Of a stretch of 40,222 nt of DNA, positions 24,741-38,779 are shown piece after piece. Within the stretch, counting starts at the first letter, position 1, and every line of letters begins with the position of its first letter. A program made the position numbers and the translations under genes. Source of the stretch: an uncultured Clostridia bacterium (GTDB taxonomy: Bacteria; Bacillota; Clostridia; Oscillospirales; JAAYOS01). Under the pieces are notes generated by a model, which saw only the letters and a list, made by a program, of their open reading frames with translations, was not told where the DNA came from and searched no databases. The stretch lies in contig CALXFK010000018.1 in the NCBI GenBank assembly GCA_944387575.1, positions 1 to 40,222 of the forward strand, read 5' to 3'.

Positions 24741-24875
24741 GTATCCTCCTCACGGCACGCCTCATCTCTTAATTGCCACAATGGCACGACTGCCGCGTTT
24801 TTTGACGTTTTTGTATTATCTGCGAGCTATATCCATTATTATTTTATTGTACTGCATTGCATTGCATATTGCGGC

Positions 24876-25457
24876 TCACTCCGGCTCGCCCTCATTCTGC
24901 GGCGGCGCCTGGAGTGCGATTATCTTTGCGGTGAGCAGCTTTGCAAGGCAGCTCGTGACCGCGGCGCTCATTACAAGATCGCGCACCTCCGAGCCGGTAT
25001 CCACGCTCTCGTCAAACACCGGCGACGCATTCAGCCGCACCTGCTCGCTGAACACCTGCGCAAGCCGCTTGTGTATCGCCACGAAGCTCTCATAGTCCCG
25101 CCGCAGCTCCGCCTCGTCCGAGCAGCTTATCATCTTCGCCACCACCGCCATCGGCAGCGTCTGCTTGAGCACGCACACCATGATAAGGCACGCAATATGC
25201 GGACGGCTGTACCGCTTGCGCACCGGCGGCGGCACCACCCCGAGCTTGACATAGTTGTTGACCATCGACCGCGTGAGCAGCTTCTCGTCGTTGCCGCTGT
25301 ACACAAAGTGGCTCAGATACTCGCATATCAGCGACACCACCTGGTCCATGTAGAGCTGCATGTGCGGGAGCTGTTCCCAGTCCGGCAGGTCGTACGCCGT
25401 TATATAGTTCTCCCACCGCACCAGCTTCGCCGCGATGAGCTTCTTGTCGTACCCCAT
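24876..25457 (-). CDS. DUF1836 domain-containing protein
   Basis: The 193-aa protein has the DUF1836 pattern: LPHMQLYMDQVVSLICEYL near the start and LLTRSMVNNYVKLGVVPPP, a helix-turn-helix-like segment resembling a MerR recognition region, then RPHIACLIMVCVLKQTLPM. Function is unknown in the family; DNA binding is plausible. The ATG at 25457 is preferred for the GGAAGGAAG just upstream. An ATG 21 bases earlier (25478) is possible; the longest open frame would begin upstream of the predicted transcript and is excluded. Confidence 0.83.
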   Translation of the reverse strand: MGYDKKLIAAKLVRWENYITAYDLPDWEQLPHMQLYMDQVVSLICEYLSHFVYSGNDEKLLTRSMVNNYVKLGVVPPPVRKRYSRPHIACLIMVCVLKQTLPMAVVAKMISCSDEAELRRDYESFVAIHKRLAQVFSEQVRLNASPVFDESVDTGSEVRDLVMSAAVTSCLAKLLTAKIIALQAPPQNEGEPE

Positions 25458-33517: not shown

Positions 33518-33546
33518 ATTATAGCATGTGCAGTTTCCGGTGTCAA
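33518..33546 (-). promoter_or_regulatory. Perfect consensus promoter of ksgA
   Basis: On the minus strand, TTGACA (33541-33546), a 17-base spacer and TATAAT (33518-33523), with no mismatch. The leader to the ATG is about 90 bases. Confidence 0.85.
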
Positions 33547-33636
33547 TTCTACGCAGCGGTGTAATTGGTCAAAAAGAACCCTCGCCCCAAAACGCTTTTT
33601 TGTCCATATTGCGCACCCCTTCCTCACTTCCACCCC

Positions 33637-33703
33637 TGTGGAAAACCCTGTGGATAACCCCGCGTTTTTCTGTGGAAAAGTCTGTGGATAACCCTGTGGA
33701 AAA
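33637..33703 (+). other. Cluster of five DnaA-box-like sites
   Basis: TGTGGATAA (a perfect DnaA box read on this strand) occurs at 33649-33657 and 33683-33691. TGTGGAAAA, one base different, occurs at 33637-33645, 33671-33679 and 33695-33703. All share one orientation. Neighbouring sites are 12 bases apart except the central gap of 22. Confidence 0.75.
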
Positions 33704-33731
33704 CTCGCTTACATATTTTGTCACGGCAAAA

Positions 33732-33802
33732 CTGTCCGCATTCCCGGTCATTTCTGTCCGAAGTCCGGTCAAGGCTGTCCACCTTTTCGGACAATCCTGT
33801 CC
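33732..33802 (+). repeat. Iteron-like CTGTCC repeats, four copies at 21-22 base spacing
   Basis: CTGTCC begins at 33732, 33754, 33775 and 33797 (intervals 22, 21, 22, or two helical turns). The first two copies are followed by CCGGTCA; an inverted CGGACA lies at 33788-33793. A further inverted copy (GGACAG, 33922-33927) sits in the promoter spacer downstream. Regular spacing on one DNA face suggests binding by a dimeric or oligomeric protein. Confidence 0.6.
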
Positions 33803-33855
33803 ATATACATTATTATATTAAATTATATAATAAATACTATATTAAATATATCAAA
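33803..33855. other. A+T-rich tract, possible DNA-unwinding element
   Basis: About 50 bases are almost entirely A and T (TATTATATTAAATTATATAA and onward), in sharp contrast to the G+C-rich surroundings. It directly follows the CTGTCC repeats. Confidence 0.5.
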
Positions 33856-33910
33856 GCAAAGCGGGACTGACTGCTTTTGGGAAGTGAAGTAAATTTTGAT
33901 TAAAGTGACG

Positions 33911-33939
33911 TTGACTTTGTTGGACAGTTGTTGTATTAT
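33911..33939 (+). promoter_or_regulatory. Predicted promoter of the winged-helix gene, with an iteron in its spacer
   Basis: TTGACT (33911-33916), 17 bases, TATTAT (33934-33939). The spacer contains GGACAG, the inverse of the CTGTCC repeat, which suggests autoregulation. A TTTACGTAAA palindrome (33957-33966) and a TACGTAAAC (33990-33998) follow downstream. Confidence 0.6.
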
Positions 33940-34010
33940 TTAAACACGGTAGTAAATTTACGTAAATCTACACAGCAGTGGTGTAACGCTACGTAAACAC
34001 CCGAGGTGTT

Positions 34011-34129
34011 GGGGGACGGGGTACCCTGTGGGGACGGGGTACCCTGTGGGGGACGGGGTACCCTGTGGGGACGGAGTACCCTGTGGGGACGGGGTACCCT
34101 GTGGGGGGACGGGGTACCCTGTGGGGGAC
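34011..34129 (+). repeat. G-rich minisatellite, six units of 18-20 bases
   Basis: The core ACGGGGTACCCTGTG starts at 34016, 34034, 34053, 34071 (one change, GGAG), 34089 and 34109, joined by three to five G. Each unit contains the palindrome GGGTACCC (partly lost in unit 4). The G-runs on the plus strand could form G-quadruplexes. The array lies in the leader of the winged-helix gene and ends 25 bases before its start codon. Confidence 0.9.
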
Positions 34130-34153
34130 AAAAATGGACTGGAGGTGCGGAAG

Positions 34154-34486
34154 ATGGTGGAACATGGTATGGACCGGCGGCGGGTGGAGCGCGCGGGAGA
34201 AGAGCAGGAGGAATACATAGTGCTGCGGGACAGCGTACTTCGCGACCGGCGGCTCTCGCCGTCCGACAAGCTGATATACTCGATGGTGCTCAGCTTCAAC
34301 GGCGGAAACCGGAGCTGCTATGCGACCGACGAGTACCTCGCGCGGCGGTTTGGCATATCCGACCGGAGCGTCCGGCGGTCGATCTCGCGGCTGGAGGCGC
34401 TTGGGCTCATCCGCCGCCACGTGACCCCCGAGGGCGTGCGCCACCTCATCGCCGCCTCCCCCGTACGTCACGACCACGAGCCTTAA
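34154..34486 (+). CDS. Winged-helix DNA-binding protein (HTH_36-like), possible replication initiator
   Basis: The 110-aa protein has a basic/acidic N-terminus (RRRVERAGEEQEEYIVLRD) and one winged helix: LSPSDKLIYSMVLSFNG, SCYATDEYLARRFGISDRSV (recognition helix) and RRSISRLEALGLIRRH. This pattern is the HTH_36 type found in replication-initiation proteins and small regulators. The start is ATG 34154, behind GGAGGTGCGG; the longer frame would translate the G-rich repeats and has no ribosome site. Because it follows DnaA-type boxes and iterons, an origin-binding or autoregulatory role is inferred, not shown. No nickase or helicase gene is beside it. Confidence 0.8.
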   Translation: MVEHGMDRRRVERAGEEQEEYIVLRDSVLRDRRLSPSDKLIYSMVLSFNGGNRSCYATDEYLARRFGISDRSVRRSISRLEALGLIRRHVTPEGVRHLIAASPVRHDHEP

Positions 34487-36760: not shown

Positions 36761-36799
36761 TACTGAAGTGTGAACAAACCAGAGTTTCGGAGGCAGGAC

Positions 36800-38779
36800 T
36801 TGGCATCTAAATATACAAACGAATCGATAACAACGCTGAAAGGCGCGGACCGGGTGCGAAAGCGTCCGGGGGTAATATTTGGCTCGGACGGGCTTGAGGG
36901 GTGCGAACATGCGGTGTTCGAGATACTCTCAAACTCCATCGACGAGGCGCGGGGCGGGCATGGCGACCGGATCATCGTGACCCGCTATGCCGACCGTTCG
37001 GTAGAGGTGGAGGACTTCGGGCGCGGGTGTCCGGTGGACTGGAACGCGCGCGAGAACCGTTTCAACTGGGAGCTTGTTTACTGCGAACTGTACGCGGGCG
37101 GAAAGTACGGCGCGGACGGGGACGGTTCGGGCTACGAGTTTTCGCTCGGTCTGAACGGGCTTGGTTCGTGCGCGACGCAGTATTCGTCGCGCTACATGGA
37201 CGTGACCGTCTGGCGGGACGGGTACAAGTATTCGCTGCACTTCGAGCGCGGCGAGATAGTGGGCGAGCTTCAGAAGGAGCCGTACAAGGGCAGGCGGACC
37301 GGGACGCTTACGCGGTGGCTGCCCGACCTCGACGTGTTCACCGACATCGACATTCCGGAGGAGTACTACCGCGACATACTCAAGCGGCAGGCGGTGGTAA
37401 ACTCGGGGGTGACCTTCGTGCTTCGGGTCGAGCGCGCGGACGGGAGCTTTGAGGAGAGCGAGTTCCGCTACGAGAACGGGATAGCGGACTACGTCGCGGA
37501 GATCGCGGGCGGGGATGCGCTCTCGAGCGTTTACGTCGCGGGCTGTGAGCGCACCGGGCGCGACCGGGAGGACAAGCCGGAGTACCGGGTGAAGATAAAC
37601 TGCGCGTTTGCGTTCTCGCGGCGGGTGAGCGTCATCGAGCACTACCACAACTCGTCCTTCCTCGAGCACGGCGGGTCGCCGGACAAGGCGATGCGGCTCG
37701 CGTTTGTCGCCGCGCTCGACGGGTACCTGCGCCGTGGCGGGAAGTACCAGAAGGGCGAGAGCAAGATAACCTTCGGCGACATCCAGGACTGCCTGATATT
37801 CGTCTCGAACAACTTCTCGACCCAGACCTCCTACGAAAACCAGACCAAGAAGGCGATAAACAACCGCTTCGTGCAGGAGGCAATGGACAAGTTCCTGCGC
37901 GAACAGATACAGGTCTACCTGATAGAGAACCCGGCGGACGCGGAGCGGATATGCGAGCAGGTGCTCGTCAACAAGCGGAGCCGCGAGACCGCCGAAAAGA
38001 CCCGCCTCAGCCTGAAAAAGAAGCTCTCCGGCGGGCTCGACATCTCGAACCGCGTTGCGAAGTTCGTCGACTGCCGCAGCCGCGACCCCGAGCGGCGCGA
38101 GCTGTACATCGTCGAGGGCGACTCGGCTCTCGGTTCGGTCAAGATGGGCAGGGACTCGGAGTTCCAGGCGATAATGCCGATACGCGGCAAGATCCTCAAC
38201 TGCCTCAAAGCCGACCTCCCCCGCATATTCAAAAGCGAGATAATAACCGACCTCATAAAGGTGCTCGGCTGCGGCGTCGAGGTGAGCCACCGCGGCGCAA
38301 AGGACCTCGCAACCTTCGAGCTCGACCAGCTCAGGTGGTCGAAAATAATCATCTGCACCGACGCCGACGTGGACGGCTACCAGATACGCACGCTCGTGCT
38401 CGCGATGCTCTACCGCCTCACCCCGACCCTTATCAACTGTGGGCGGGTATACATCGCAGAAAGCCCGCTCTACGAGATAACGAGCCGCGGAAAGACCTGG
38501 TTTGCGTACACCGACGCCGAAAAGGCAAAAATACTCGCGGAGCTCGGCGGCGCAAAGTACACCGTTCAGCGCTCGAAGGGTCTCGGCGAGAACGAGGCAG
38601 ACATGATGTGGCTGACCACGATGTCCCCTGAGACGCGCCGCCTTGTGCGGGTGGTCCCGGAGGACGTGGAGCGCACCGCCGCGATGTTCGATGTGCTGCT
38701 CGGCACCAACCTCACCGCGCGAAAGGAACTCATCGAAAACGAGGGTTACCGCTTCCTTGAACTCGCAGATATAAGCTGA
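36800..38779 (+). CDS. DNA topoisomerase IV/gyrase subunit B-type protein (GyrB/ParE paralogue)
   Basis: The ATPase subunit of a type IIA topoisomerase. In the 659-aa protein the GHKL ATPase domain has EILSNSIDEAR (the catalytic Glu and Mg-binding Asn), VEDFGRGCPVDW and GLNGLGSCATQYSS; the TOPRIM domain has EGDSALGS (about 440) and TDADVDGYQIRT (about 521), with PIRGKILNCLKA between. It is closest to the clostridial ParE-like paralogue. TTG 36800 is the preferred start: CGGAGG lies 6 bases upstream and the protein then begins MASKYTNESI, as in relatives. GTG 36770 has no ribosome site. The expected GyrA/ParC partner gene is not adjacent. Confidence 0.92.
   Translation: MASKYTNESITTLKGADRVRKRPGVIFGSDGLEGCEHAVFEILSNSIDEARGGHGDRIIVTRYADRSVEVEDFGRGCPVDWNARENRFNWELVYCELYAGGKYGADGDGSGYEFSLGLNGLGSCATQYSSRYMDVTVWRDGYKYSLHFERGEIVGELQKEPYKGRRTGTLTRWLPDLDVFTDIDIPEEYYRDILKRQAVVNSGVTFVLRVERADGSFEESEFRYENGIADYVAEIAGGDALSSVYVAGCERTGRDREDKPEYRVKINCAFAFSRRVSVIEHYHNSSFLEHGGSPDKAMRLAFVAALDGYLRRGGKYQKGESKITFGDIQDCLIFVSNNFSTQTSYENQTKKAINNRFVQEAMDKFLREQIQVYLIENPADAERICEQVLVNKRSRETAEKTRLSLKKKLSGGLDISNRVAKFVDCRSRDPERRELYIVEGDSALGSVKMGRDSEFQAIMPIRGKILNCLKADLPRIFKSEIITDLIKVLGCGVEVSHRGAKDLATFELDQLRWSKIIICTDADVDGYQIRTLVLAMLYRLTPTLINCGRVYIAESPLYEITSRGKTWFAYTDAEKAKILAELGGAKYTVQRSKGLGENEADMMWLTTMSPETRRLVRVVPEDVERTAAMFDVLLGTNLTARKELIENEGYRFLELADIS

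Follow-up and report, generated by a model that had tools for sequence, protein, structure and literature searches.

Does a chromosomal locus that carries the parts of a replication origin beside an initiator-like gene act as an origin, or does it serve the control of DnaA? The question is raised by a module on contig C18, which we analysed entire (40,222 bases; hereafter the window) and which belongs to a 1.85 Mb Clostridia genome assembled in 109 contigs and 88% complete. Contig C1 carries the module a second time, and dnaA and dnaN lie on C16. An earlier note on this DNA had listed DnaA boxes, CTGTCC repeats, an A+T tract, a promoter with an inverted copy of the repeat, a minisatellite and a gene for an HTH_36-type protein. 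All of these are present where the note had placed them, and it was also right that dnaA and dnaN do not adjoin the module. Three readings had been left side by side: the chromosomal oriC in an unusual place, a domesticated plasmid origin, or a site of DnaA titration or regulation that has a binding protein of its own.

The module contains five head-to-tail TTWTCCACA boxes on the minus strand (33637–33703; spacing 12-22-12-12 bp), three of which read TTTTCCACA (33637–33645, 33671–33679, and 33695–33703) and two TTATCCACA (33649–33657 and 33683–33691). Since the whole 1.85 Mb genome holds just 53 such sites (14 for a reversed-pattern control), finding five within 75 bp, where ~0.002 are expected, is far above chance. 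A linker, TTTTGCCRTGACAAAAWATGTAAGYRAG (33704–33731, minus strand), leads to four imperfect palindromes of the form GGACA-N4-TGTCC (33725–33802), about two helical turns apart. The CTGTCC repeats, starting at 33732, 33754, 33775, and 33797 (spacing 22, 21, and 22), are the halves of these palindromes, which refines their earlier description as plain repeats. Outside both modules, the strict palindrome occurs at only two places in the genome, and the reversed control pattern at five in all. Next comes the A+T tract (33803–33853), a candidate bending or unwinding element and the weakest 50-bp duplex of the window, at −42.3 kcal/mol against −50.3 for the next-weakest 50-mer in 40 kb. An outer edge block, AAAAG-N-A-N-TCAGTCCC (33854–33876, minus-strand sequence), follows the tract.

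Beyond this block, a predicted sigma-A-type promoter (TTGACT-17-TATTAT; 33911–33939, plus strand; 10/12 matches) lies upstream of the HTH_36 gene, and its spacer contains the half-site GGACAG (33922–33927). The motif TTTACGTAAA (33957–33966), the sole TTTACRTAA in the window and referred to below as the companion motif, comes next, followed directly upstream of the gene by six copies of a G-rich minisatellite (unit GGGGACGGGGTACCCTGTG, 18–20 bp; 34012–34126, plus strand). The minisatellite is found neither in the C1 copy nor in other DNA of this genome examined, and probably lies outside the conserved module. At the opposite end of the box array sits the ksgA promoter (TTGACA-17-TATAAT; 33518–33546, minus strand; 12/12 matches), of which relatives possess a similar type without the array. 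Rfam returned no match above threshold, and a parS search of the window found none. The window further encodes an extra gyrB/parE-type gene (36770–38779) that scores far under the gyrB and parE model cut-offs; an ordinary gyrB lies beside recF in the same genome.

The HTH_36 gene (34154–34486, plus strand) encodes a winged-helix protein of 110 aa (Pfam HTH_36, E 3e-13), with a ribosome-binding site and a coding-like GC content by codon position (0.70/0.45/0.83). The protein matches phrog_270 (E 2e-15) over residues 26–102 of 383 and most resembles the N-terminal DNA-binding part of phage replication initiators and DnaD-like loaders; it has a single winged-helix domain. A full initiator fold, as iteron-origin Rep proteins would have, is absent beside the palindromes: the 110 residues hold the DNA-binding domain alone. 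An AlphaFold model from single-sequence input formed no wing and gave no basis for a fold comparison. We found no homologue in nine genomes of the family, two weak matches in the order, and no match among 72,556 plasmids. Because an ordinary DnaD-domain protein is encoded elsewhere in the genome, the HTH_36 protein need not replace DnaD. It is possibly the binder of the palindromes, and the palindrome half in the spacer of its own promoter suggests that the gene may be autoregulated.

A whole-genome box search revealed one other large array, with six boxes spaced 12-12-22-12-12 (G000:C1:4791-4869), flanked by a methyltransferase gene on one side and an oxidoreductase-dgt-dnaG-rpoD cluster on the other. 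When brought into one orientation and aligned over ~230 bp, the window and C1 loci have in common the outer block, the A+T tract, the four palindromes at 21–22 bp spacing, a near-identical linker (TTTTGCCRTGACAAAAWATGTAAG) and the five or six boxes. The genome thus contains one module in duplicate, the second copy being a new finding; no HTH_36 gene adjoins it. Between the copies, 37 of 40 palindrome half-site positions are identical, as compared with 7 of 16 in the N4 cores (Fisher P 2e-4). Half-sites that are kept while their cores diverge form the pattern expected of a bound dimeric protein, and we infer that such a protein binds the palindromes. In both copies the repeats adjoin the A+T tract, giving the direct repeats at helical spacing that are typical of iteron origins. 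The C1 tract is the weakest of its 15 kb contig, and no other 50-mer sampled in this genome is as weak as those of the C1 and window tracts, which fall ~10 kcal/mol below the dnaN region in stability.

To locate oriC, we took stretches of the genome and scored the coding-strand skew of each gene at its 4-fold degenerate sites. On C16, dnaA (14.2–15.6 kb) and dnaN-recF-gyrB-gyrA (25.1 kb) are split, 10 kb apart. Every plus-strand gene through queG (ending at 24759) has a skew of −0.18 to −0.46, as opposed to −0.07 to +0.15 from dnaN (starting at 25146) onward, and the mostly positive skew of minus-strand genes changes to −0.33 across the same point. The strand bias therefore switches within the 387 bp between queG and dnaN. 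These contain four perfect TTWTNCACA boxes and a further box with one mismatch, after which come TAC-like triplets and a T-rich stretch. Given this switch, the interval (G000:C16:24760-25145; L017:760-1146) is the probable true oriC. No switch was seen at the window module, where the left and right skews are −0.057 and −0.056 for plus-strand genes and +0.193 and +0.064 for minus-strand genes, although the three genes on the right give this comparison low power (bootstrap −0.27 to +0.16). Nor was one seen at the C1 copy, where plus-strand genes are leading on both sides. In E. coli and B. subtilis, the boxes of the basal unwinding system have their 3′ ends directed toward a DnaA-trio and an A+T-rich element. 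Neither copy has this arrangement; instead, the boxes of both face the other way, and the A+T tract is 100 bp distant from them, with the palindromes in between.

If not at the origin, to what do the boxes belong? Across the order, pairs of boxes at 12-bp spacing occur in 63 of 197 genomes, and the reversed control pattern matched once. Naming tsaD and mnmE from protein sequences and from tblastn with the mnmE of this genome, we found such pairs beside tsaD (gcp) in several families (L024, L027, L032, L042, L043, L120, L122, and L132) and just upstream of mnmE (trmE) in four genomes (G061, G089, G139, and G161); others lie at varied genes. Loci L044–L047 likewise have a pair beside tsaD. Two regions of B. 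subtilis, gcp/ydiF downstream of gcp (= tsaD) and trmE/jag upstream of trmE (= mnmE), rank among those most strongly bound by DnaA (PMC4447404), and deletion of six such clusters leads to earlier initiation (PMC5295017, PMC13220808). That the pair is kept beside tsaD in several families, as at B. subtilis gcp, suggests an ancient DnaA site. In G161, distances of 87 and 176 kb separate the pairs from the skew minimum, which falls at dnaA-dnaN; in G042, the pair is 22 kb from dnaA-dnaN, and in two members of the family (genus g5) it is 20 kb from dnaN. Five genomes (G061, G139, G089, G043, and G018) have exactly two pairs each, with three-base spacers that are identical within a genome. The orientation of the order's clusters relative to fork direction is mixed, with no bias.

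The companion motif suggests a tie between the window module and these clusters. Within 250 bp of the order's pairs, TTTACRTAA is ~110-fold enriched (27 in 22.4 kb vs 4 in 374 kb), a figure that counts related species separately and for which about six independent families are the safer measure. Often in the form GTTTACGTAAA, it recurs at loci L019–L048 and L114–L133, frequently at fixed offsets—for tsaD-linked loci, ~57 bp on one side and ~109 bp on the other. This genome has 23 occurrences, and each of its three arrays (on C1, C18, and C64) has one within 0.4 kb, a coincidence with a chance of ~1e-6. Its presence near all three would link the window module to the extra-oriC clusters of the order, though the module's locus in this genome is neither tsaD nor mnmE. 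The C64 array is a small box pair (G000:C64:20165-20185; L016:5166-5186) with TTTACATAA 18 bp away, near a leader that looks like an FMN-riboswitch type.

The composite module itself was found in no other species in our searches of species, class, and order genomes. Its core matched 18 times in 84,980 species, never accompanied by a DnaA-box array, and once, by chance, in viral contigs. GGACA palindrome arrays gave seven other matches in 394 genomes of the order, all in or near coding or tRNA sequence and without box arrays. Triple 12-bp box arrays were confined, among 391 genomes of the class, to this genome and a coding repeat in G322; we considered coding repeats (PVEN/PVDN) for the window array as well and rejected them, because the 22-bp box spacing shifts the reading frame.

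With moderate confidence, we read the module as an extra-oriC DnaA-box cluster—a DnaA sink or timer—in a lineage-specific composite form that would have its own binding protein and is present twice. Like known clusters of this kind, it comprises several consensus boxes in an intergenic region outside oriC; with those of the order it has in common the 12-bp spacing and TTTACRTAA, at a different genomic address. Mechanistically, DnaA would load cooperatively and head-to-tail on the five or six boxes spaced 12 bp, and a dedicated dimeric protein would occupy the four palindromes, which recur at intervals of roughly two helical turns. With this partner and the bendable A+T tract, the site may be compacted into a complex in which DnaA is held or inactivated, a role that we liken to that of IHF at E. 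coli datA. The best candidate for the partner is the HTH_36 protein, encoded beside the window copy by a gene whose presumably autoregulated promoter carries the same half-site. The lack of this gene beside the C1 copy counts against the model. DnaA held at the site may then help to set when oriC fires. Of the three earlier readings, that of a titration or regulation site with its own binding protein fits best; it gains from the duplication of the module, from the conservation of the palindrome halves and from the extra-oriC box pairs found across the order.

The weak A+T tract and the palindrome array nevertheless have no counterpart in known clusters of DnaA boxes and bear a closer resemblance to an origin. 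One could envisage a dormant or conditional second origin that descends from a plasmid or phage replicon and in which only the HTH_36 protein is left of the initiator. This protein would bind the palindromes as iterons, and the A+T tract would open while DnaA helps to load the helicase. The unusual weakness of both tracts makes a conditional origin conceivable, the parts are those of a classical iteron origin, and the likeness of the protein to the N terminus of phage initiators lends some substance to the earlier notion of a domesticated plasmid origin. However, the protein has nothing beyond its DNA-binding domain and no plasmid counterpart, the module core has no relevant viral match, and the C1 copy lacks an initiator gene. 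The boxes, moreover, face away from the tract, and neither copy shows a strand switch (with low power to the right of the window copy). On balance, we regard this second-origin reading as distinctly unlikely. Placing the chromosomal oriC itself in the window would account for five boxes beside an A+T tract, and ksgA is an origin-near gene in many Firmicutes. In one genome of the family (G008), a perfect parS (TGTTCCACGTGGAACA) just upstream of ksgA (L011:1317) suggests that the ksgA locus is origin-proximal there. Yet the skew data contradict an oriC in the window, in that the switch falls upstream of dnaN on C16, at an interval with four perfect boxes of its own, and a near-identical module sits on C1 amid leading plus-strand genes; that proposal of the earlier note is hence extremely improbable.

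A different possibility is that the arrays mainly serve to make transcription respond to DnaA levels at ksgA, at the HTH_36 gene and at the C1 oxidoreductase gene. In B. subtilis, DnaA acts as a transcription factor (PMC4447404); the window array ends ~90 bp upstream of the perfect ksgA promoter, and ~60 bp separate the end of the C1 array from a promoter-like sequence that lies upstream of the oxidoreductase gene. We nonetheless hold such promoter control to be unlikely as the explanation: the flanking genes differ between the copies, ksgA in relatives is regulated without an array, the palindromes and A+T tract lie on the opposite side of the boxes from ksgA, and the pairs of the order, near tsaD, mnmE or varied genes, have no single target promoter. 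Finally, two dispersed copies in one species with none found elsewhere, one of them adjoined by a minisatellite, might be expected of a small mobile or repetitive element without cellular role, its box-like repeats being accidental. No terminal repeats, target duplication or transposase were seen, however; the protein-binding half-sites are kept where neutral positions are not, and the broken reading frame excludes coding repeats, making an accidental element very unlikely.

The preferred reading, an extra-oriC cluster, offers a DnaA control module that can be read by its conserved versus free positions, through two copies, a candidate partner and a companion motif across the order. To our knowledge, there is little sequence evidence for DnaA titration beyond model bacteria, and the module provides well-defined elements through which the control of initiation can be tested in Clostridia-like bacteria. 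It also illustrates that strand bias can distinguish an origin-like locus from oriC, even where the assembly is in many pieces. More tentatively, a winged-helix protein of phage-initiator descent acting as architectural partner of a two-copy DnaA control site could represent a new class of DnaA-inactivating or -reactivating sequence, or the copies could be conditional secondary origins beside a normal oriC; we consider this broader proposal a doubtful but genuine possibility.

How does the module compare with known systems? With the Firmicutes oriC, the dnaA-dnaN intergenic region, it shares DnaA boxes near an A+T-rich stretch; in contrast, the oriC of this genome lies upstream of dnaN on C16, and the module has no DnaA-trio and none of the box-to-A+T orientation of the basal unwinding system. 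Iteron plasmid origins combine the same parts—DnaA boxes, iterons, an A+T-rich region and a Rep gene—beside a winged-helix gene, whereas here the locus is chromosomal, in two copies with the gene at one only, encodes a single-domain protein, has boxes directed away from the A+T tract and shows no strand switch. E. coli datA, DARS1, and DARS2 are likewise non-coding chromosomal sites at which DnaA boxes are accompanied by a binding site for another, architectural protein (putative in our case); in place of an IHF site, of which none was recognised, the module has four regularly spaced palindromes and an A+T tract. The extra-oriC clusters of B. subtilis (gcp/ydiF, trmE/jag, ywcI, ywlC, yqeG/sda, and yydA) are comparable in that they, too, gather DnaA boxes of high affinity in intergenic DNA outside oriC. 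Unlike these, the module couples boxes that all share one orientation, at 12-bp spacing, to arrayed palindromes and an extreme A+T tract, is duplicated, and lies elsewhere than tsaD and mnmE—the same two addresses, gcp and trmE, at which its relatives in the order carry their pairs.
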